Shown here: piece after piece, positions 7,125 through 57,762 of the stretch
Numbering within the stretch: position 1 is the stretch's first letter
Layout of the letters: each line of letters starts with the position of its first letter
Assembly (NCBI GenBank): GCA_030024085.1
Contig: JASEJE010000007.1
Coordinates: 18,644-82,643, forward strand
From: Bacillota bacterium
GTDB lineage: Bacteria > Bacillota > SHA-98 > UBA4971
Direction: 5' to 3'
DNA length: 64,000 nucleotides
Position numbers and translations under genes: made by a program
Notes under the pieces: generated by a model
The model's database searches: none
Seen by the model: the letters and a program-made list of their open reading frames with translations, nothing else
Told to the model about the DNA's origin: nothing

Positions 7125-7502
7125 CGGCTTGCTCCTTCGTTTCCGGGCTCAAAGGCGGGCCCGAATAGGATGGGGAAAACGCTGAGCGACTTATGTGCTG
7201 ACTGCAAATAAGTGGGCCAGAAGCACCACGCGCACTTGCCGTATCCCCGGGTCGCCCGCTGCATCCAGGGCAGCGCCGCCGCAGTCGTCCCCAAGTATGG
7301 TGCCATAAGCTTGTGCCGCTCGTCCCGACGGTGTCGGGGTGGCCCGTGCTTGCCAGGGCGGGGCGCCTGGAATTTGGCTAGCCCTTGCGCCAAATTCGAA
7401 CGAGGCTCACCGCAAGCGCGCCGTCCCCGGAGGGCAACACCGGCAACCCTGGACAGGACTCACCCGCTGAAGAGTAGCGCGAACTTGTGGCGATCTACTC
7501 AG

Positions 7503-46157: not shown

Positions 46158-46754
46158 TTACAGGAGTTCAAGACCAGCCAGAGAGCGACCGTCGTGCCAG
46201 ACGGGGATCTCGGCCTCCTCGCGCAGCCGGTTGAGCACGTAGAAGCACTTGGGTTGTTCGATGTCCTCGAGGTTCACCCCGCCGAACGAAGGCTGCATCC
46301 ACTTGACCGCCGAGATTATCTCGTCGGGACTGCTGGTCGCGAGGCATATCGGAAAGGCGTCCACTCCGCCCAAGTACTTGAACAGAAGAGCCTTGCCCTC
46401 CATCACCGGAAGCCCCGCCTCGGGCCCGATGTTGCCAAGCCCCAACACCCTGGTACCATCGGACACCACCGCTACGGTGTTCCACTTGTTGGTGTAAGAG
46501 TAAACCAACTCCCGGTTCTTCTCAATCTCCTTGCACGGTGCTGCAACACCAGGAGTGTACCAAATCGCAAAGTCCTGAAAATCCCTCACTACGCACTTAA
46601 GCGTGGTCTCCATTTTCCCCCGATAGAATGGATGCAACCTCAACGCGTCCTGCGCAGGCTTCTTCGCCTTCGCGAGAAGCTCATCCTTCGTCCCCACCTT
46701 CGTACCCCCTTGCTCTGGATTTGACGAGCTGGATTTAGCGGGTTGCTTGAGCAC
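46158..46754 (-). pseudogene. Truncated malic enzyme (N-terminal domain only)
   Basis: MEttLKCVVRDFQDFAIWYTPGVAAPCKEI...YSYTNKWNTVAVVSDGTRVLGLGNIGPEAGLPVMEGK; ends EIPVWHDGRSLAGLELL* where HDDQQGTA normally follows; no NAD-binding domain. Confidence 0.8.
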
Positions 46755-46830
46755 CCGGATTGCGGACTTGTTTCCCCGAGTTCAACTTCTACGGTATGTG
46801 GGAGAACCACCAATTCCTCCAATGATCCGT

Positions 46831-47382
46831 TCAACTGACCTGGTATTTCCTCACGCCCTCTTCGTAGAGGTCGTTACCGTAGATATCGTTTACCACCACG
46901 GCCGGGAAGCCTTCAACCGTGAGTCTCCTAATGGCCTCAGGGCCGAGGTCTTCGTAAGCCACGAGTTCCGAGGCTTTAACGGACCTTGCAAGGAGAGCCC
47001 CTGCTCCGCCTATCGCCGCCAGGTACACCGCCTTGTATCTTACCATGGCATCCTTGACAGGCTGCGACCGGCTGCCTTTGCCGATCATCGCTTTGAGCCC
47101 CTGCTCCATGAGAATGGGAGCATACGGGTCCATCCGGCCACTTGTGGTCGGACCGGCAGAACCGATAGGCCTTCCTGGCGGAGCAGGAGTCGGGCCTACA
47201 TAGTATATGATCTGCCCGCGAACGTCCATCGGAAGCTCCTGGCCCTCCTTTATCAGAGCGACAAGCCTCTTGTGAGCCGCGTCCCTGGCGGTGTATATCA
47301 CTCCTGTTATGCTCACGTTATCTCCCGCCTTCAGACCGGCGATTACCTCATCCGTAAGCGGCGTTGCGACCTCTATTGCCAT
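46831..47382 (-). CDS. Fumarate hydratase (class I, two-subunit) beta subunit
   Basis: MAIEVATPLTDEVIAGLKAGDNVSITGVIYTARDAAHKRL...YYVGPTPAPPGRPIGSAGPTTSGRMD. Confidence 0.88.
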   Translation of the reverse strand: MAIEVATPLTDEVIAGLKAGDNVSITGVIYTARDAAHKRLVALIKEGQELPMDVRGQIIYYVGPTPAPPGRPIGSAGPTTSGRMDPYAPILMEQGLKAMIGKGSRSQPVKDAMVRYKAVYLAAIGGAGALLARSVKASELVAYEDLGPEAIRRLTVEGFPAVVVNDIYGNDLYEEGVRKYQVS

Positions 47383-47444
47383 CTGCCGTTCATCTCCCTG
47401 GGTACTGAGTTGTCTCTTACACGAGTACCCGCGCCACCGCAGGC

Positions 47445-48305
47445 CTATATTACAGCGCTCTCATGCGGCCCCACGTGACAGTTCAGGTTCACCGCAACCG
47501 GCATGCATGCGATGTGGCACGGTGCAAACTCGATGTTCACGGCAAGCGCCGTCGTCCTGCCTCCGAACCCCTGCGGCCCTATCCCGAGCTTGTTTATCTC
47601 CCCAAGCAGCTCCTTCTCGAGATCGGCATACATCGGGTGGGGATTACGCGAGCCCACAGGGCGCAGTAGTGCCCTCTTCGCAAGAACCGCCACCCTGTCG
47701 AACGTGCCCCCTATCCCTACCCCGACCACAATCGGAGGGCACGGGTTCGGCCCTGCCTTCTTGACCTGTTCTGTGACGAAGCTCTTGACGCCCTCCACTC
47801 CGGCGGCAGGCGTCAGCATAGCAAGCGCGCTCATGTTCTCCGCCCCGCCGCCCTTCGGGGCCACCGTTATCTTGAGATCATCGCCCGGGACGATGTCTAT
47901 GTATATCATCGCGGGCGTATTATCCCCGGTGTTCACCCGTTTGAAGAGAGGGTCAGCCACCAAGGACTTTCGCAGGTAGCCTTCTTTGTAGCCCTGCCTG
48001 ACCCCCTCGTTGATCGCCTCGTAAAGGTCTCCCCCGGTAAGATGCACATCCTGCCCTAGCTCAACGAAGACCATCGCCACCCCCGTGTCCTGACAAGCCG
48101 CTACGCCTTCCTCCCTCGCTATCCTGTGGTTCTCGAGGATCTGCTTGAGGATCTCCCTGCCAACCGGGGACTCTTCCGTCTCCACGGCTCTCTCTAAAGC
48201 AGCAATGGCCTCTCGTGGAACGTTGCAGTTGGCACTGATGCATAACCTTCTTACTGCAGATGTGACTTCAGCTACGGACACCTCACGCAAGTCAACCAGA
48301 TTCAT
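47445..48305 (-). CDS. Fumarate hydratase (class I, two-subunit) alpha subunit
   Basis: ACQDTGVAMVFVELGQDVHLTGGDLYEAINEGV...GVGIGGTFDRVAVLAKRALLRPVGSRNPHP. Confidence 0.9.
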   Translation of the reverse strand: MNLVDLREVSVAEVTSAVRRLCISANCNVPREAIAALERAVETEESPVGREILKQILENHRIAREEGVAACQDTGVAMVFVELGQDVHLTGGDLYEAINEGVRQGYKEGYLRKSLVADPLFKRVNTGDNTPAMIYIDIVPGDDLKITVAPKGGGAENMSALAMLTPAAGVEGVKSFVTEQVKKAGPNPCPPIVVGVGIGGTFDRVAVLAKRALLRPVGSRNPHPMYADLEKELLGEINKLGIGPQGFGGRTTALAVNIEFAPCHIACMPVAVNLNCHVGPHESAVI

Positions 48306-48522
48306 AACATCGCCCCCTGTCTCGTCACCGCTTTACCCTGATTCGGCCTTCCCCTTCTCTGAAAAATGGGGTCCGTTCGGACAGCGCAGGGCGCGGTCCC
48401 TCTGGGCTGCGATTCTCGCCTTTTCGACAGGCCGGGGTCAGGGTTCTGCACGCAGTAATTGGTGTCTAACCGGGCCCGACCGGTTTTCTGGACTTGCCGC
48501 AGAAGGATCGTGGCCCTCCCGT

Positions 48523-49818
48523 TCACCGCATAAGGAGATTGGGCAGGAAGAGAGAGACTTGTGGAACGTACGTCACAATCAGAATGCACCCTACCCAAAG
48601 CGCCACAGGGACCCACAGCCCCTTCAGGAACTTATCCAGCGGGACCTTGCAAACCTTTGCTGCCACAAACAGGGTTGCCCCGACAGGGGGCGTGACCATG
48701 CCAAGCGCCAGATTCGTTGCGAATATGGCGCCGAAGTGGATGAGGTCTATGTTCATCGCGCGGGCCACAGGCACCAGGAACGGCGCCAGCAACAGGGTAA
48801 TCGACGAGCCGGTCGTGAGACATCCTCCGATGATGAGTATGACGTTGACGATCAACAGAAACAATACAGGGCTGTGGACGTTCTGAACGAAGAACCCCGT
48901 GACGGCCTGGGGTATTCTCTCGGCAGCCATAACCCACGAGAACGGTCCTATCGCGGCGACGAGCAGCATTATGGCCCCACCGGCAACAGCGCTCTTCATG
49001 AGAATCGCCGGAAGGTCTTGCAGTCTGAGACTTCTCCAAACGAAAACGACGATGATCAGACTGTAGACGCACGCTACAACCGCTGCCTCTGTGGGAGTGA
49101 AGAGGCCCGAGTAGATCCCCCCGAGGATAATGACGGGGACAAGCAGTGCAAGGAGGGCCTCTCTCACTCTTGTCACGACTTCACGAGCGCTCACCTTGCT
49201 CGTGCAGACCTCTCCATACCCGCGCTTTGCGGATACGAAGTATTCCCAGGCAATCAGCGTTCCGCCCACCAGTAGTCCCGGGCCCACACCTGCGAGAAAC
49301 AGCCTTGCCACCGACTGGCCGGTAGCAGCGCCATACACAACCATCTGTATGCTCGGAGGGATGAGAATGCCAAGTGGGCCTGAAAGCGCTATGACCTGCG
49401 AGCTAAACACCCGATCATAGCCCTCGCGCTCCATCTCCAGCGCGGTACTCCCTCCGATGGCGGCGGCGGTTGCCGGTCCAGACCCCGAGACCGCGCCGAA
49501 CAGCATGCAGCCGAGCGTGGTTATGTAGGCATAGCCACCCCTCCTCCTTTTCGCGACGATGCCGACGAGGTCGAGCAGCACCTTGGACACCCGCCCCTGA
49601 TACATGAGGTCGCCGGCCAGGATGAACATGGGTATGGCCATGAACACAAAGGAGTTCGCGCTCGAAAACATGTTCTGCGGGACAGTGAGAAGGAAAGATG
49701 GGTCCTTGAGGACGAAGACGATGTACGCCACCGCCAGCAGCCCCAGGGCGACAGCGAGAGGCACGCCCACGGCGAGAAAGGCTAAAAGACCCGCGATGAG
49801 GATAACGAGGTTACTCAT
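48523..49818 (-). CDS. dctM: TRAP transporter large permease
   Basis: LFGAVSGSGPATAAAIGGSTALEMEREGYDR. Confidence 0.95.
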   Translation of the reverse strand: MSNLVILIAGLLAFLAVGVPLAVALGLLAVAYIVFVLKDPSFLLTVPQNMFSSANSFVFMAIPMFILAGDLMYQGRVSKVLLDLVGIVAKRRRGGYAYITTLGCMLFGAVSGSGPATAAAIGGSTALEMEREGYDRVFSSQVIALSGPLGILIPPSIQMVVYGAATGQSVARLFLAGVGPGLLVGGTLIAWEYFVSAKRGYGEVCTSKVSAREVVTRVREALLALLVPVIILGGIYSGLFTPTEAAVVACVYSLIIVVFVWRSLRLQDLPAILMKSAVAGGAIMLLVAAIGPFSWVMAAERIPQAVTGFFVQNVHSPVLFLLIVNVILIIGGCLTTGSSITLLLAPFLVPVARAMNIDLIHFGAIFATNLALGMVTPPVGATLFVAAKVCKVPLDKFLKGLWVPVALWVGCILIVTYVPQVSLFLPNLLMR

Positions 49819-49823
49819 CTTGA

Positions 49824-50381
49824 CTACCTCCCTCCATCTGCCCGGCCGCTGGCCGGCTTGGCAGCGCTCGGCATCTCCTGCGCCGGTGCAGGAACCTGTG
49901 TTGGCTTTGCTGCTCTGACGATGGCTTTCAAGTCTGATGCCAGATTAGCCGCCTCAAGGATCGCCATGAGCGCTCCACCGACCGCAAGCGCGACTGTGGG
50001 GACGAACATCGAGAACCTCAAGGTCACCGCCTGGCGCCCGAGGCTGAGCAGAGCAAACTGGAAGCCATAGAACGCAAGGAAAACATAGAACACGACTGCC
50101 GCTACCTGTTCGATGACCCTCAACGCAAGCGCGCGCCTCGGTGGCAGCACGGCCTGAAGGTATTCGATCCTGAGATGCTCTCTCCTTGCTACGGCCGAAG
50201 CTCCTGCCACAAATGCGAACCAGACCATGAGGTATCCTGCGAACTCGCCCGCCCACGGCAGGAAGAACCCAAAGATGTTTCGGTTCAGCACGTCAACAAA
50301 CACCACACAACCGGTTGCCACGAGAAGAAATGCCCCTGCCCAGTCCACTGCTCTTGTCAAGCTTCTTATAGTCAGCTTCAT
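49824..50381 (-). CDS. dctQ: TRAP transporter small permease
   Basis: 4-TM protein with NIFGFFLPWAGEFAGYLMVWFAFVAGASAVARREHLRIEYL. Confidence 0.92.
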   Translation of the reverse strand: MKLTIRSLTRAVDWAGAFLLVATGCVVFVDVLNRNIFGFFLPWAGEFAGYLMVWFAFVAGASAVARREHLRIEYLQAVLPPRRALALRVIEQVAAVVFYVFLAFYGFQFALLSLGRQAVTLRFSMFVPTVALAVGGALMAILEAANLASDLKAIVRAAKPTQVPAPAQEMPSAAKPASGRADGGR

Positions 50382-50575
50382 ATTGGGTGCTAGCCCCCCT
50401 TCGTCCAGGGCATCGTCTAAACAGATCGTTAGCTCGGTATCGCTTTACCAGAGGTTCACCCACTCCGGGTTCCCGGTCCTGTAACTCTCCTACCAAATGT
50501 CAACGGCTCTCTCGCGCAAGCACTGGCGACCTCACTCGACCGCCAGGCACCTGCGAACCTTCGCTTAGTAGTGCC

Positions 50576-50610
50576 GGTCGGCTGGGTTCTCTTCAGGGGC
50601 CCAGCCGACC
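50576..50610 (-). promoter_or_regulatory. Intercistronic hairpin between dctP and dctQ
   Basis: GGTCGGCTGGG-N13-CCCAGCCGACC, 11-bp perfect stem. Confidence 0.8.
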
Positions 50611-50659
50611 GCGTCCCACACGATCGATGCACGCCACGCACTAAGCCAGCCTTCCTGGG

Positions 50660-51682
50660 CTACTTGACATTCTTCAACCTTTCTATCAGGTCCTTGCCGT
50701 AAAACTCGTACGCCCAGCTTTCAATGTTCTTCCAGGTCGCATCCCAAAGGGCCCTGTCCGGCGAAGTGATGACCACTTTAGGCTGGGCTTTCAGGAACTC
50801 AAGATCCCTCACTTCAGCCTCTTCAGACATCTTCCTCTCATACGCGCAGGCCTCACGCCCCGCCTCAACGAGCGCTGCCTGGATATCCTTGGGCAACGAC
50901 TGGAAACGCTTCATGCTCACAACGAGCGGGTTTGTGGCGTACATGGTGCCCGTAAGACATATGTAAGGGGTGACTTCATAGAGCGTGGTGTCCCGGAGGT
51001 TCGTCACATTCTGCACCATGCCGTCCACCACTCCAAGCTGGAACCCGCTGTAGAGCTCGGAGTAGTCCACCGACGTCGACACCGTACCAAATGCTTTGTC
51101 CTGCATGACAGCCATAGCGCTCCCGGGTTTGCTCCGGAACTTCAGACCTCTCAGATCCGATGGTTTCTCCACTTTCTGGCGGGTGCAGACGTGGTACCAG
51201 CCGTTTCTGAACCAGCCCAGCACCTTGAAGCCGTGAGACTCCAGCTTCTTTGCAAACTCCTGGCCGACATCACCGTCAACCACCTTCCAGAAATGGTCCC
51301 AATCCCGGTAGAAGGAGAGCAACCCAAGCACGCCGAGCTCCTTTACGTAACCCTCGTAGAGGCCTGTGTGTTCGGCGGTAAAGTCGATGGTCCCCATTCG
51401 CACGCCGTCCACGGCCTGGACGCCGCCTCCGAGAACCGAGTTGGGGTATATCTGGACCTTGACCTTGCCCCCTGTCTTCTCGGCAACTAACTCTGCGAAC
51501 TTCTGGGCACCGATGTCGTATGGATGTCCTGTCTTCTGGCAATGCGCAAACTTCAGCACTACCGGAGCCTCTTTCGCAAGACCAGAACCCGGGACCGCCA
51601 TGGAACCCATGAGGATGACCGCCATAGTAAGAAGGGCCATCGTTCCCAGCCTTGCACCCGCTGTACCTCTCCAGGAAAACAT
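50660..51682 (-). CDS. dctP: TRAP transporter solute-binding protein
   Basis: VVLKFAHCQKTGHPYDIGAQKFAELVAEKTGGKVKVQIYPNSVLGG. Confidence 0.92.
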   Translation of the reverse strand: MFSWRGTAGARLGTMALLTMAVILMGSMAVPGSGLAKEAPVVLKFAHCQKTGHPYDIGAQKFAELVAEKTGGKVKVQIYPNSVLGGGVQAVDGVRMGTIDFTAEHTGLYEGYVKELGVLGLLSFYRDWDHFWKVVDGDVGQEFAKKLESHGFKVLGWFRNGWYHVCTRQKVEKPSDLRGLKFRSKPGSAMAVMQDKAFGTVSTSVDYSELYSGFQLGVVDGMVQNVTNLRDTTLYEVTPYICLTGTMYATNPLVVSMKRFQSLPKDIQAALVEAGREACAYERKMSEEAEVRDLEFLKAQPKVVITSPDRALWDATWKNIESWAYEFYGKDLIERLKNVK

Positions 51683-51845
51683 AGGCTTATCCCTCCCGCA
51701 TGTAAGTATGAACGCTGACTCAAGTGCCGCGAACACGCGATACGCCCTGCGTTCTCGGACGCTATAGCCTGCCCCGGGTTGCTTGCCGGCAGCCCCCGCC
51801 GACTCCATCGCGTCTTCTCCTGGCTACTGGCAAAGCCTGGCCCGT

Positions 51846-53192
51846 CTATCCCGCTACCCTGTCAACGTACAGCGGAGCAAGCCCGAGATACGAAGCAGGG
51901 TCCATGAGGTCCTCTATTTCCTGGCTAGATAGCACCTCGGTGACCCTCGAGTCCTCTTCGAGCACTTTCTTCAGAGGCCGCGCCTCCTCGAAAGCCTCCA
52001 TCGAGTCCTCGTACACGATTTCGTGGGCCGTTTGCCTGCCTACCGCACCAGCGAGCCTCATCATCACACGCTCTGATAGAAGCAGCCCGTGCAGCGTATC
52101 GAGGTTCCGCTTCATGTTATCCACGCGGACCTTCACTCGCGGGAGCTCACTATTGAGAATGGCAAGCCCCGCCGCGGAGATAACGAAGGACTCGGATATG
52201 AGCTTCATCTCCGATCCCCACGTTCTCCAATCTCGCTCGTGTTCCCCGCTCATCACCTCCAGCATCACATCTGCATTCGACCTTACAAACCGTGCGAGAG
52301 CCACAACATGCTCCAGTTGCATGGGGTTGCGCTTGTGCGGCATCGTGCTGCTGCCTATACGACCGGTAGCGTCCTGTTCCAGCTCTGCTATTTCCGTCCT
52401 CTGGAGTGTCACGACTTCGTTGGCTATCTTCGCAACAGTCCCCATGATCATGCCCAGCACCGATAGGAGCTCCGCGAAACCATCACGCGCGGAGTGCCAT
52501 GAGATCGACGGAACCCCAAGGTCAAGCTCCCTTGCGAGCTCCTGTTGGAGTGCAAAACCCATCTCAGGCCCTATTGTAGCGAGAGTCCCCGCGGCTCCGG
52601 AGAACTCCACCGCGAGAACCCGGGGTCTCAGTTGGGTGAGTCTCGCGATGTGTCTTCTCAGTTCCTCGACCCAAACAGCCACCTTGTAACCGAACGTAAT
52701 GGGCACGGCGTGCTGACCGTGCGTTCTCCCGACCATTACCGTCATCTTGTGCAGCCGCGCAAGGCCCACGCAAGTCTGCTCGAGGGCGCGCACGCTGCGC
52801 TCGATGGCTTCCAGGGCAGATCGTGTCTGGAGGATACAGCCGGTATCCATGATGTCCTGCGTGGTTGCCCCCCAGTGAATGTACTCCCCTGCGCTGGTCT
52901 CGCACGCCCTCTGCAGGGCGCGAATCATCGGCATTATCGGGTGGCCTGTTCTAACATAGCCTTCCCTGACCTCATCGAGGTGCAGGTTTTCTATCTTGGC
53001 CTTCGCGCTGATCTCCTGCGCTGCGGCCTCGGGAACCAGGCCGAGCCTTGCCTGGGCTCGCGCCAGCGCCGCTTCTACGTCGAGCCAGCTCTGAACGGTG
53101 GACTCATCGTCCCATATTCTCCTCATTTCGTCTGTCCCGTACGAATCCCTGAAGATACGAGAATCGATAAGGCTGGTCGCCACAAAATGCAC
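51846..53192 (-). CDS. Fumarase/aspartase-superfamily lyase (adenylosuccinate lyase / 3-carboxymuconate cycloisomerase-like)
   Basis: GSSTMPHKRNPMQLE signature; GRTHGQHAVPITFG; HWGATTQDIMDTG. Confidence 0.9.
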   Translation of the reverse strand: MHFVATSLIDSRIFRDSYGTDEMRRIWDDESTVQSWLDVEAALARAQARLGLVPEAAAQEISAKAKIENLHLDEVREGYVRTGHPIMPMIRALQRACETSAGEYIHWGATTQDIMDTGCILQTRSALEAIERSVRALEQTCVGLARLHKMTVMVGRTHGQHAVPITFGYKVAVWVEELRRHIARLTQLRPRVLAVEFSGAAGTLATIGPEMGFALQQELARELDLGVPSISWHSARDGFAELLSVLGMIMGTVAKIANEVVTLQRTEIAELEQDATGRIGSSTMPHKRNPMQLEHVVALARFVRSNADVMLEVMSGEHERDWRTWGSEMKLISESFVISAAGLAILNSELPRVKVRVDNMKRNLDTLHGLLLSERVMMRLAGAVGRQTAHEIVYEDSMEAFEEARPLKKVLEEDSRVTEVLSSQEIEDLMDPASYLGLAPLYVDRVAG

Positions 53193-53340
53193 CTCCCCAG
53201 CAGTTCGCCCTTAACTGAACCGATGAGCTGCATGATCTCACTGGCTCGCTATCAACAGCGATTCGTCGCCGAGCACCAGGCAACTCACCGTTTTCGTTGG
53301 AGCAGATCGTTCCCGGGAACTCCTCTCACTGTGCATGGGA

Positions 53341-53357
53341 AGCAAGATTCGTGCCGG
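53341..53357 (-). promoter_or_regulatory. Sigma-54 (-24/-12) promoter for the lyase operon
   Basis: Minus strand CCGGCACGAATCTTGCT versus consensus TGGCACG-N4-TTGCW. Confidence 0.78.
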
Positions 53358-53586
53358 GTTCCTGGGCAAGCACAAGCCATCCCTCTTGTTTTCCCAAAGC
53401 GCGTGCAGGCCTCTCGACTCAAATCCGTACCAGCCACTGAATGCCTGCCCCGCGGGCTTTTTCGCACGATGTGCTCACAAGGAATTGCCAGGCCAAAGAA
53501 GGACCCTCCACCACGGCAACAACGAACGAGACCCCGGACCTGCTCCCAGGATTCCAGGCCGGGGCGTTACATGTACAACGAAAGGC

Positions 53587-53622
53587 TGTTACAATGCAAC
53601 ATCTAAGTGTTACGCTGTAACA
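53587..53622. promoter_or_regulatory. Paired 15-bp near-palindromes with 21-bp period, candidate activator binding site (UAS)
   Basis: TGTTACAATGCAACA (53587-53601), TCTAAG, TGTTACGCTGTAACA (53608-53622). Confidence 0.65.
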
Positions 53623-53701
53623 GCCTGTTAAACGAAGACGTATCGCGGCAGGTCCTGTGACCCTTGCGGCTGGCTCAATCCGCTCTTGTGCTTCTTGTGT
53701 T

Positions 53702-55669
53702 TCAGAAGGTACCGGTGTCCTGGGACCTGCCACGCGACCTGAGCTTACGCCAGATTGTGACCCTGCTGACGCCGAGCAGCTCCGCAGCACGGCTCTTGTT
53801 GCCTCCGGCGGCAATGAGGGCCTTCGTCACAGCGTCAGAGGAGAGATTACGCGCCCTTCGAAGCGGATGCGCCTGGAACTCCGGCCCGCCGCCCGGCCTT
53901 CGCGAGATGAGAGGTTCAGTAGCGGTCTTCTTTGCGTCATCCAGCTCTGCCACGAGATCAGCCAGCAGTTCGTCGTAAATGGGACCGTCCTGTGCGAGGG
54001 CAGCCAGCCTTTCGACAAACGCCCTGAGCTGCCTCACGTTGCCCGGCCAGCGCAGGGTCTGCAGCATGGGCAGCACCCGGGGTGTGAGGCCTTGCACCCG
54101 TGCCTCCACCAGAGGGCCGTGCTCTTTGAGGAAATGGCTGAAAAGGTCAGGGATGTCCTCGGGGCGTTCCCGCAATGGCGGAACCTCAAGCCTCAACACG
54201 CTGATCCGGTAGTACAGGTCGCTTCGGAACCTCCCTTCGCGCACCTCGCGCGCCAGGTCTTTGTTGGTCGCGGCAATTACGCGTACGTCCACCGGGATCA
54301 GTTCCCTCCCACCCACCCTGAGCATCTCTCTTTCCTCGAGCACACGAAGGAGCTTCGCCTGCGCCGACGGAGAAAGGTCCGCGATCTCATCAAGAAAGAT
54401 GGTACCCGTATGAGCCAGCTCGAGGAGCCCCTCTTTTCCACCTCGCTTGCCACCCGTGAAGGCTCCTTCCTCGTAGCCAAACAGCTCGCTCTCGAGGAGT
54501 GTCTCAGGAAGCGCAGCGCAGTTGATAGAGACAAAAGGCTTCCTGGCGCGGGGGCTTGCATTGTGAATCCCTTGAGCGAAGAGTTCCTTTCCAGTGCCTG
54601 TCTCCCCGGTTATCAGCACCGTGGAATCGGTTTTCGCGAAACTGGCGGCCTTGTTTCGCACCCTCTGTATGAGGCCGCTCGTGCCCAGGACATCTTCGAG
54701 GGTCTTGTGTGCGGCGAAATCGACTCTCGCCCTCCTTGACCGCAACTGCGCCTCAACCAGGCTCACATCCCGGGCTTCATGTATGGTGAGAACAAAGCCA
54801 GTTGTGGCGCTGTCTGCAGAGATCCGCCGCACAGCAACCACGAGATCCTTGCCGACGGACTGGACGATCTGAGGGCGTGCCTGGGGCGAAGCAGATGTGA
54901 AGTCAAGGCCGGGGAGGACTTTCTCGACAGGCTTCCCCATGATCGCGCGAGACGTGGTGCCGAGAACATCGCATGCCATGGGGTTTGCAAGGGTAACAGT
55001 TCCGGACGCATCCGTGCCGACAATCCCTATCGGCGCGAAATCTCCGACTGCCTGGAGCCGGACGGCAAGGTCTTTCTGAAATCGGTGCAGATGGGCAAGG
55101 TGCGCAGCCTCTTCGATAGTCCCACGCAAGGTGGTTTCCGAGTATATGGGGATGCCATCGATGCCGAATTCCCTGGCCAGAAGGCAGGGAAGAGTCGGGG
55201 CTACAATGGTCTTGACAGTGTTACGTGCAAGACCCTCGACACATTGTCGGATGCCTTCGAGACTGTTGTACACTACCTGCCTGATTCGAAGGTCTGACAC
55301 CTGCGCCAGGTCATCGAGAACCGGTCTGGGACTACCGTAGAGAAGGACGACAATCTCCTCGTCGGGGCTGTGAGCGTAGGCTTTCAATATGGCCTCCAAG
55401 AGATCCGTGCCTTCGATCCTGACTTCCACGACCGGCGCGCGGACCCGCCGCCTGAGGCCTGGGGTGATGGAGGCACCGGAGATGAACGCATCGGCAAACG
55501 CCTCGTACTCCTTGGCCACCTTGATAGCTTCATCAAAAGAGCCACCGACCATCTGGAAATCAACTCGCTCGCTGAGCGGGTGCTCCTGGATAACCTTGCG
55601 GAACATCCCCTCAGAGAGAGCGTTGCCGATGATTACCACTCGTGGTTTCCCGCATACTGGTGCTGACAT
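53702..55669 (-). CDS. PrpR-N / PAS / sigma-54 AAA+ / Fis-type HTH transcriptional activator
   Basis: ITGETGTGKELFAQGIHNAS, ELFGYEEGAFTGGKRGG, RWPGNVRQL, C-terminal NKSRAAELLGVSRVTIWRKL. Confidence 0.93.
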   Translation of the reverse strand: MSAPVCGKPRVVIIGNALSEGMFRKVIQEHPLSERVDFQMVGGSFDEAIKVAKEYEAFADAFISGASITPGLRRRVRAPVVEVRIEGTDLLEAILKAYAHSPDEEIVVLLYGSPRPVLDDLAQVSDLRIRQVVYNSLEGIRQCVEGLARNTVKTIVAPTLPCLLAREFGIDGIPIYSETTLRGTIEEAAHLAHLHRFQKDLAVRLQAVGDFAPIGIVGTDASGTVTLANPMACDVLGTTSRAIMGKPVEKVLPGLDFTSASPQARPQIVQSVGKDLVVAVRRISADSATTGFVLTIHEARDVSLVEAQLRSRRARVDFAAHKTLEDVLGTSGLIQRVRNKAASFAKTDSTVLITGETGTGKELFAQGIHNASPRARKPFVSINCAALPETLLESELFGYEEGAFTGGKRGGKEGLLELAHTGTIFLDEIADLSPSAQAKLLRVLEEREMLRVGGRELIPVDVRVIAATNKDLAREVREGRFRSDLYYRISVLRLEVPPLRERPEDIPDLFSHFLKEHGPLVEARVQGLTPRVLPMLQTLRWPGNVRQLRAFVERLAALAQDGPIYDELLADLVAELDDAKKTATEPLISRRPGGGPEFQAHPLRRARNLSSDAVTKALIAAGGNKSRAAELLGVSRVTIWRKLRSRGRSQDTGTF

Positions 55670-55827: not shown

Positions 55828-57705
55828 CTACAGCCATGCCTGGCACCGGTCGATGGCCCACCGCAGATCGAGTTCAAGCAGCTTGCTCCTGGTCGGAACA
55901 CCGTCGGGCGTCCAGCCCATCATCGCATAGTGCAGTCGCACCGCCTCCTCGACCCGGTCGGGGTCGATCCCTGGCAGTTCCCCGGGGTCCTCCGGCGCAT
56001 AGAACCTGGCAGGCAGACGGTCGGTCGATGCGTCGATTCCCTCTCTCAAGTTGAAGAGGCGGGACAGGTTTGCCGCACGTTCGCCGGCTTTCAGGAGTTC
56101 CCAAACTGAAGTGTTCCAGCCGGTGGCGGCGGAGACAAGCTCGGCTGTCTGGTCTGGCCTCCACGGAACGAACATGCACATCACAAGCGAGTCCTGCGCG
56201 TAACGCCAGAGGAGCCAGTAGGTCAGAAGCCTGACCTTGGCCGGCCCGAGGTCCTCGAGGGGGACGGGTTCAAGAATACCAAGGCTTTTCGCGCCTTCGA
56301 AGTCCGGCGTCGGCTGGGCAAAGAGCGTATCGTGCAGGTTCGCCATGTGTTCGGCACCGGTCGGGGAAACCGCATACCCGATCCCGAGAGCTCGCTTCCA
56401 CCGCGGCTCATGCATTGGAACCTCCTGACCCTTGACATGAACGGCAAGTTCTTCGGCGCCTCTCCCGATGCGCTCGGCGGCCCTTGCAACTCCATCCGAG
56501 AGCAAAGCCCCTATCCCCTCTCGCTTCGCTATCAACTCCACGAGGCGCAACATCGCGCCCTGGTCGCCAAAACGCACCTCCAGGCCCCCAGCTTCGTCCC
56601 GGGTCAGCAGGCCTTTCTCGAAGCACTCCATGGCAAAGCTGACTGCGGCACCGGTCGATATGGTGTCCAGAGAATACGCGTTGCAGAGCTCGTGCGCTTT
56701 GGCAACCGCCCTGATATCACCGATGTCGCAGTTGGAACCGAAGGCAGCTATGGTCTCATACTCCGGCCCACCATAGGCGGGATCGACCCTGTACGGCTCA
56801 TCCATTCCCACAACTTTCTTGCACCTCATAGGGCAGGCGAAGCAGCCGCCCATCCCCTTCAAGATGTTGCCCCTCATCCGATACGGTACGAGGTCGGCTG
56901 CGCCAGCAAACGAACCACCTCTGAAGTTGTGCGTGGGCAGGCCCCCGAACCTGCTCATGACATCAATGGCCGAGCCGGTCCCGATGTCGTGGAACGCCGC
57001 TGCCAGCGTCCTGAAATTCCGGCCCATCCAGCGCGCGAGCTCCATGGCCCTGGAGGAATCGTGGAGATCGACTCGTCCCGACCCCTCAACCACGATCGCT
57101 TTCAGGTTCTTGGAACCCATCACGGCGCCGAGCCCACAGCGTCCGGCGGCATGCTTGAGGTCGGCTATGATACATGCAACCTTCACCTGATTCTCTCCTG
57201 CTGGGCCAATGAGGAGCATTTTCGAGGAATTGGATCCGAGTGCCTCCTGAATGTCCCGGCGTGCCTCACCGGTGGCCCTTCCCCACAGCTTTTCCGCACT
57301 TTGCAGTTCCACGGCCGAGTCGCGTATGACCAGGTACACGGGGTGGGACGCTCTACCTCCAATGATTATGCCGTCATACCCGGCCTTCTTCAGTTCCACC
57401 CCAAAAGAGCCACCAACCTCGGACTCACCGAAGCCGCCGGTCAGTGGAGATCTCGCGCCTACGCTGTTCCTGCCAGTCCCGGGGACTGGCACCCCTGTAA
57501 GGACGCCCGTGAAAACCAGCAGCGGGTTGCCTGGTCCAAGGGGGTCCGTCCGGGGGGGCACCTCGCTCAGCAGGTACCGGGAGATGAGAGCCCGCCCGCC
57601 CAGGTATTGCCGGTAAATGTTCTCTGGAGGCTCCTCCACTTCGACTCGCTCAGCATCAAGGTTGATCCTGAGCAGCTTGCCGGTATAGCTACGACCCACG
57701 TGCAT
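55828..57705 (-). CDS. Aldehyde:ferredoxin oxidoreductase (tungsten-type)
   Basis: YTGKLLRINLDAERVEVEEPPENIYRQYLGGRAL; GGCFACPMRCKKV. Confidence 0.92.
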   Translation of the reverse strand: MHVGRSYTGKLLRINLDAERVEVEEPPENIYRQYLGGRALISRYLLSEVPPRTDPLGPGNPLLVFTGVLTGVPVPGTGRNSVGARSPLTGGFGESEVGGSFGVELKKAGYDGIIIGGRASHPVYLVIRDSAVELQSAEKLWGRATGEARRDIQEALGSNSSKMLLIGPAGENQVKVACIIADLKHAAGRCGLGAVMGSKNLKAIVVEGSGRVDLHDSSRAMELARWMGRNFRTLAAAFHDIGTGSAIDVMSRFGGLPTHNFRGGSFAGAADLVPYRMRGNILKGMGGCFACPMRCKKVVGMDEPYRVDPAYGGPEYETIAAFGSNCDIGDIRAVAKAHELCNAYSLDTISTGAAVSFAMECFEKGLLTRDEAGGLEVRFGDQGAMLRLVELIAKREGIGALLSDGVARAAERIGRGAEELAVHVKGQEVPMHEPRWKRALGIGYAVSPTGAEHMANLHDTLFAQPTPDFEGAKSLGILEPVPLEDLGPAKVRLLTYWLLWRYAQDSLVMCMFVPWRPDQTAELVSAATGWNTSVWELLKAGERAANLSRLFNLREGIDASTDRLPARFYAPEDPGELPGIDPDRVEEAVRLHYAMMGWTPDGVPTRSKLLELDLRWAIDRCQAWL

Positions 57706-57762
57706 CACCCTTCCACGCTCTAGGTTGAGTAACATCCTCCACCGGCGGGCGCCTGTGAGGAG

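Follow-up and report, generated by a model that had tools for sequence, protein, structure and literature searches.

The DNA considered here is a 64,000-nt stretch of contig JASEJE010000007.1 from a Bacillota bacterium, which as a whole is referred to as the window and supplies the positions given below; labels beginning with G, L and C denote comparison genomes, loci of a contig scan and contigs, respectively. The window carries a cluster of minus-strand genes in the order lyase, DctP, DctQ, DctM, FumA-type, FumB-type and malic enzyme fragment. The cluster is likely to be an operon for the breakdown of a succinate substituted at position 2 (a "fumarate adduct"), providing import, release of fumarate and conversion to malate.

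Gene content and control

A preliminary description of this DNA had listed co-oriented genes for a superfamily lyase, DctPQM, a two-subunit fumarase and a malic enzyme fragment, with no purine biosynthesis gene adjacent to the lyase; coordinates and families are confirmed (Table 1), and the window likewise contains no purine gene beside it. All three subunits of the tripartite ATP-independent periplasmic (TRAP) transporter DctPQM are present, and both subunits of the class I heteromeric fumarase score above the curated fumarase cut-offs. Open, full-length reading frames are present for the lyase, DctP, DctQ, DctM, the two fumarase subunits and a PrpR-type activator encoded upstream. Gaps of 278 bp and 217 bp separate DctP from DctQ and DctM from FumA, and co-transcription is a proposal only; no convincing terminator was found in either gap and no MmgE/PrpD remnant in the 217-bp gap, and an Rfam comparison gave no match.

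Control by sigma-54, as proposed earlier, is predicted from the activator, from a sigma-54 gene (rpoN) in the genome and from a -24/-12 promoter candidate in the 509-nt gap between activator and lyase. This site has one mismatch to TGGCACN5TTGCW, and its end at 53356 agrees with the end point of 53357 chosen for the region in the preliminary description. Sites equally good number only four on both strands of the whole window, and about 0.016 would be expected by chance in the gap on that strand. An inverted repeat, a candidate activator site, sits about 230 bp upstream of the -24/-12 site. The activator is 54.7% identical to the PrpR adjoining the lyase in G014, and a PrpR activator adjoins the cluster in both G053 and G014. 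G014, G053, L067 and L111 likewise have a site of this kind, with one or two mismatches, between PrpR and the operon; by locus, four relatives have such a site there, with one mismatch in L045 and L111 and two in L046 and L067.

The malic enzyme gene is broken off at the ..PVWHD motif, and alignment with intact enzymes shows that the NAD-binding half is gone. The remnant is 82% identical at the nucleotide level to an intact gene of the same genome at C22, with the match ending at position 46187, and another intact malic enzyme is encoded at C8. The fragment reported earlier is present, but the pathway step is broken, and malate-to-pyruvate conversion would have to use malic enzymes encoded elsewhere because the cluster copy is truncated. 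We also note a 210-bp interspersed repeat at 7293-7502, about 88% identical to two copies flanking the intact malic enzyme gene at C22.

Table 1. Features of the lyase cluster and the region upstream of it (window positions)
Feature	Position	Strand	Model, score or remark
Lyase, aspartase/fumarase superfamily, non-PurB, 448 aa	51846-53192	-	PF00206 + PF10397
Lyase motifs YIHWGATTQDIMDT, GRTHGQHAVP, GSSTMPHKRNP	within 51846-53192	-	
DctP-type TRAP solute-binding protein	50660-51808	-	TIGR00787 194.5 bits, PF03480
DctQ small TRAP permease	49824-50381	-	PF04290
DctM large TRAP permease	48523-49818	-	TIGR00786 386.7 bits, PF06808
Class I (Fe-S) fumarase alpha subunit	47445-48305	-	NF004885 412.9 bits, cut-off 276
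Class I (Fe-S) fumarase beta subunit	46831-47382	-	NF005310 268.9 bits, cut-off 238
Malic enzyme remnant, N-terminal domain only, 198 aa	46158-46754	-	PF00390 only
PrpR-type sigma-54 activator, 655 aa (PrpR_N, PAS, AAA+, Fis helix-turn-helix), probable regulator	53702-55669	-	
Candidate sigma-54 promoter CGGCACGAATCTTGCT	53341-53356	-	149 bp ahead of lyase start
Inverted repeat AGGCTGTTACA..TGTAACAGCCT, 11-bp arms, candidate activator site	53583-53626	-	

Identity of the lyase

Automatic annotation would name the window lyase PurB, because it scores 344.5 bits on the NCBIfam purB model TIGR00928 and passes its cut-off of 326.2. This cut-off is not discriminating, since non-PurB relatives score higher, among them the lyase of a Pantoea yxe-type locus (383 bits) and a Synergistota lyase (375 bits). 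The genome holds five PF00206 proteins: the window lyase, ArgH, two aspartase-type enzymes and a canonical PurB at C11, which scores 554 bits on TIGR00928 and whose gene adjoins pyrimidine genes (neighbouring sequences were judged by eye). In a tree of 86 sequences the nine PurBs form a 100/100 clade that excludes the window lyase, and where PurB has the motifs GxTSSDVxDT, HDVIAF and SHSSxER, the window lyase has WGATTQDIMDT, HPIMPM and TWGSEM. Judged from its sequence, the window lyase is not PurB. The earlier statement that it need not be one, for which a phylogenetic placement and a genome search for a second, canonical purB had been suggested as checks, has been borne out by both. The fold is shared with PurB. 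The TIGR00928 score and a sister position to the PurB clade, which the approximately unbiased test does not reject (p-AU 0.49), would suit a second, divergent adenylosuccinate lyase with incidental neighbours; this is highly improbable given the canonical PurB already in the genome, the closed PurB clade, the replaced motifs and the higher score of the Pantoea lyase on the same model.

The active-site residues of fumarate-releasing relatives are kept (H106, H158, S281/S282, K287 and N289), as is the GSSTMPHKRNP loop. A predicted structure with a mean pLDDT (predicted local distance difference test) of 93, which replaced a poor model built from 5 sequences (pLDDT 68), matches 3c8t (42% identity), Tad1, CMLE, CreD and then PurB folds. 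The fumarate lyase 3c8t, from Mesorhizobium/Chelativorans sp. BNC1, is the closest solved structure by both sequence and fold, but it lies in a clade with PcaB and Tad1 and has SSTMPQKQNP and GRTHLQHA where the window lyase has SSTMPHKRNP and GRTHGQHA. The window lyase has a long branch, and its place within the non-PurB part is not fixed by the tree.

Several named identities were rejected. Ethylenediaminedisuccinate (EDDS) lyase (6g3d, 6rx8) and argininosuccinate lyase are superfamily members that release fumarate from N-substituted aspartates, but they reach only 47-51 bits to the window lyase, and the argH model gives 87.5 bits against a cut-off of 279.5. XcbD, a 3-sulfopropionylcysteine synthase, is the second-best NCBIfam model at 476 bits, below its cut-off of 600, and other Xcb genes are not adjacent. 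Both PcaB/CMLE models score below cut-off (TIGR02426, 301.6 versus 355.75 bits; NF006554, 411.8 versus 595 bits). Tad1 identity fails on the ARSNLKQA segment, which is not shared, and on the separate clade.

The presence of Tad1 and CMLE among the closest solved structures brings in another reading, in which the lyase decarboxylates trans-aconitate or acts as a cycloisomerase, and its product, such as mesaconate, is the substrate of the fumarase-type hydratase. It is very improbable: the catalytic segment is GRTHGQHA in the window, ARSNLKQA in Tad1 and GRTWLQHA in PcaB; Tad1, its Bradyrhizobium sister and PcaB form a 100/99 clade without the window lyase; grouping PcaB with the window lyase is rejected (p-AU 0.0097); class II FumC stands in for the class I enzyme in several clusters; and genes for an itaconate CoA-transferase, hydratase and CoA-lyase are not adjacent, unlike at L161. 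That locus (L161:761-6350, a plasmid of Bradyrhizobium sp. CB82) encodes a lyase that the tree joins to fungal Tad1 as its sister (100/100), in a cluster with DctA, MaoC, CaiB and a CoA-ester-lyase, and is a candidate bacterial operon for trans-aconitate-to-itaconate degradation.

A further comparison is with S-(2-succino) lyase (2SL) of the yxe locus, a fumarate-releasing enzyme from the family of the window lyase (PMC9706529). The window lyase might accordingly cleave the C-S bond of S-(2-succino)-type thioethers, the cluster serving to salvage succinated thiols. The lyase of the yxe-like locus in Pantoea (with GNAT, amino-acid ABC transporter and amidohydrolase genes) is 42% identical, the second-best model XcbD is a C-S forming member, and related loci add pyridoxal phosphate (PLP) enzymes, cystathionine beta-lyase-like in Campylobacter and CuyA/XcbE-like in Oceanobacillus. 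The window has no acetyltransferase, ABC transporter, deacetylase or PLP enzyme beside its lyase, which forms a separate branch. Grouping it with the 2SL proxy, a single Pantoea lyase assigned by gene context, is weakly disfavoured (delta lnL 22.9, p-AU 0.046), long branches being involved, and the proxy groups instead with a Campylobacter/Proteus/Comamonadaceae lineage. On balance a 2SL-like role seems rather improbable.

Related clusters in other genomes

The lyase was not found in any of five same-genus genomes. Within the family, G011 encodes a relative at 52% identity; farther away in the phylum, identities of the relatives are 48-51%. Conserved synteny, whose absence the preliminary description had named as a refutation, is seen in all four relatives G011, G053, G014 and G017, where DctPQM adjoins the lyase; the G053 and G017 clusters add FumA, FumB, an SdhA/FrdA-type flavoprotein, MmgE/PrpD and iron-sulfur proteins. 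In G014 the lyase-DctPQM contig C142 ends in MmgE/PrpD beside DctM, and at the end of contig C164 are FumA, FumB and a malic enzyme gene that is intact; identity to their window counterparts is 87%, 81% and 76%, respectively. The ends of the two contigs do not overlap, and that they are neighbours is a guess. The window fumarase subunits are also 84% (alpha) and 82% (beta) identical to copies at C55 of their own genome. On C164 we further note a second fumarate-type lyase (L189:1605-3110, 501 aa), which is ArgH/EDDS-lyase-like; its neighbours are GntR and a TAXI-like binding protein, and 2.4 kb separate it from the operon of FumA, FumB and malic enzyme.

A contig scan for lyase loci returned 80 named loci and extends the synteny further. 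The Clostridia locus L111 has in a row the lyase, TctC, TctB, TctA, two MmgE/PrpD genes, FumA, FumB, FumC and malic enzyme, and the Synergistota loci L054 and L118 have FumA, FumB, a FumC-type enzyme and malic enzyme, with GntR, the lyase and MmgE/PrpD close by. The combination of GntR, lyase, DctA and FumC occurs on plasmids of Methylobacterium and Paraburkholderia, and that of TAXI-TRAP, lyase and FumC on a Cereibacter plasmid. The transporter accompanying the lyase is TRAP-DctPQM in the window, the four relatives above, L054, L059 and L067; the tripartite tricarboxylate transporter TctCBA in L111, L060, L053 and L056; DctA in L157 and L159; and TAXI-TRAP in L162. The fumarase may be class I (window, L045, L047, L054, L056, L111, L118) or class II (L054, L087, L111, L118, L157, L159, L162). 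In the Paraburkholderia plasmid (L157:381-14847) the GntR-lyase-DctA-FumC genes lie between two opposed IS91/integrase pairs, as if mobile.

Neighbours on the same strand within 10 kb of the lyase were counted in 82 loci, the window included. A fumarase is present in 10 of these (about 0.6 expected by chance), MmgE/PrpD in 21 (about 0.5) and malic enzyme in five (about 0.24); the expectations are rough, being based on assumed copy numbers and a 4-Mb genome, and the loci are kin-related, so the figures convey direction and size rather than an exact probability. Fumarate-reductase-type flavoprotein genes are close to the lyase in 5 loci. Aspartase was considered as an alternative partner: the class II enzyme of L111 is a FumC above cut-off, those of L054 and L118 are FumC-like by motif, that of L087 is ambiguous, and the L080 enzyme is aspartase-like but on the opposite strand. 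Aspartate as leaving group is thus not supported by a linked aspartase.

Two further groups of loci contain PLP enzymes. L091:7009-12712 and other Campylobacter loci combine the lyase and MmgE/PrpD with a cystathionine beta-lyase-like PLP enzyme, RidA and a DcuC-type transporter, which suggests that the adduct there may contain sulfur or an amino acid. In Oceanobacillus a single cluster (L060:8993-16785) unites lyase and MmgE/PrpD with TctCBA and a PLP enzyme of CuyA/XcbE-like type.

An aldehyde ferredoxin oxidoreductase gene lies upstream of PrpR in the window (55828-57735); across its length, no relative within the genus exceeds 45% identity, and genes of this type are also near the lyase in G017 and L118. 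It was considered as a pathway partner, but such genes are numerous in the genus. The many such genes are the sole basis for regarding the source bacterium as probably anaerobic.

No MmgE/PrpD gene was found in the whole window genome. Among solved structures the G053 protein matches Bacillus IRG1/MmgE (3e-50) and iminodisuccinate epimerase 2hp0/2hp3 (5e-41), and the family includes iminodisuccinate epimerase and methylsuccinate isomerase, which act on succinate-type carbons (PMC12290011). By analogy, MmgE/PrpD in many relatives probably epimerises the lyase substrate; the window genome, having none, would use one stereoisomer only. The lack of this gene, which belongs to the G053 and G017 operons and stands beside DctM in G014, together with the truncated malic enzyme would fit a decaying remnant of a fuller lyase/TRAP/MmgE/FumAB/malic operon, in which growth on the substrate has been lost. 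With the lyase, TRAP, fumarase and activator genes intact, the promoter and dyad in place and intact malic enzymes at C22 and C8, this is improbable.

A candidate pathway for fumarate adducts

The most likely scenario for the adduct operon is as follows. The PrpR-type activator and sigma-54 RNA polymerase would turn on the operon, and the TRAP transporter would take up the fumarate adduct using an ion gradient. The lyase would then strip the substituent by beta-elimination to leave fumarate, by the mechanism of the superfamily, in which the serine of the mobile GSSxMPxKxN loop is the base and a histidine aids the leaving group. The two-subunit fumarase would form L-malate, drawing the unfavourable lyase equilibrium forward, and malate could reach pyruvate via the malic enzymes at C22 and C8; in relatives MmgE/PrpD would epimerise the substrate, as in iminodisuccinate breakdown. 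The equilibrium of 2SL favours the adduct (Kc about 0.005-0.007; PMC9706529), and a linked fumarase makes chemical sense since superfamily equilibria lie on that side and fumarase removes fumarate.

The recurrent linkage of lyase, transporter and fumarase supports the order proposed in the preliminary description, in which TRAP imports, the lyase releases fumarate and the hydratase makes malate. Around one type of lyase, fumarases of two unrelated classes and transporters of non-homologous families replace one another, a strong argument for uptake, fumarate release and malate formation. On the simplest reading the lyase product, very probably, is fumarate and its substrate an external carboxylate, and the window TRAP transporter quite probably imports that substrate. 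Among substrate classes an N-substituted aspartate is favoured, at somewhat under an even chance, because pairing with MmgE/PrpD is known from iminodisuccinate. S-succino compounds are the main alternative, since 2SL is of the same family and the Campylobacter and Oceanobacillus loci add sulfur-amino-acid PLP enzymes, and are by themselves unlikely; O-succino, nitro, sulfo or other compounds, taken together, are possible rather than probable.

Among the closest known parallels is the iminodisuccinate pathway of Agrobacterium tumefaciens BY6, in which, as Cokesa and colleagues reportedly found in 2004, all isomers can be degraded only when an epimerase works together with a C-N lyase that is stereoselective. 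Both systems would have a lyase of succinate-substituted amino compounds, and most relatives of the window cluster have MmgE/PrpD, the family of iminodisuccinate epimerase. The window and its genome differ in lacking MmgE/PrpD, and the window cluster in having dedicated TRAP and fumarase genes.

Several points weigh against the adduct pathway. Superfamily members of the same fold do other chemistry, such as lactonisation by CMLE and decarboxylation by Tad1. The characterised best matches of the lyase are less than 40% identical, and the 42% match, 3c8t, carries no assigned function. The plasmid lyases with DctA-FumC and TAXI-FumC fall in the PcaB/Tad1/3c8t clade and are therefore analogues rather than orthologues. 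A second class I fumarase elsewhere in the genome means that a dedicated copy is not strictly required, and with half a malic enzyme and no MmgE/PrpD the window copy could be decaying. Since the ligands of DctP proteins are numerous, the presence of TRAP does not fix the substrate; the solved structures related to the window DctP are DctP proteins with mixed ligands and give no clue.

A description of this gene combination was not found in the literature searched, which mostly lacked subscription papers, and the related clusters in many distant bacteria, often with MmgE/PrpD, seem not to have been described previously. Annotation routinely gives the names PurB or PcaB to members of this lyase subgroup, for example on plasmids, a practice that would hide a catabolic family. 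Fumarate adducts also exist as chelators. They arise spontaneously from fumarate and thiols (PMC9706529). We tentatively suggest, as an idea still short of an even chance, a widespread undescribed system by which bacteria, anaerobes among them, take up natural fumarate adducts (such as N- or S-succinated amino acids) as a source of carbon or electron acceptor, using an epimerase, a dedicated lyase and fumarase, with a substrate new for characterised lyases. The small gene set makes the substrate question directly testable with the binding protein and one enzyme assay. If the adduct pathway is right, many bacteria, among them Synergistota, Clostridia, Burkholderiales and Campylobacter, would feed on fumarate adducts by means of a recurring module in which a carboxylate importer is joined by the lyase, an epimerase and a fumarase.

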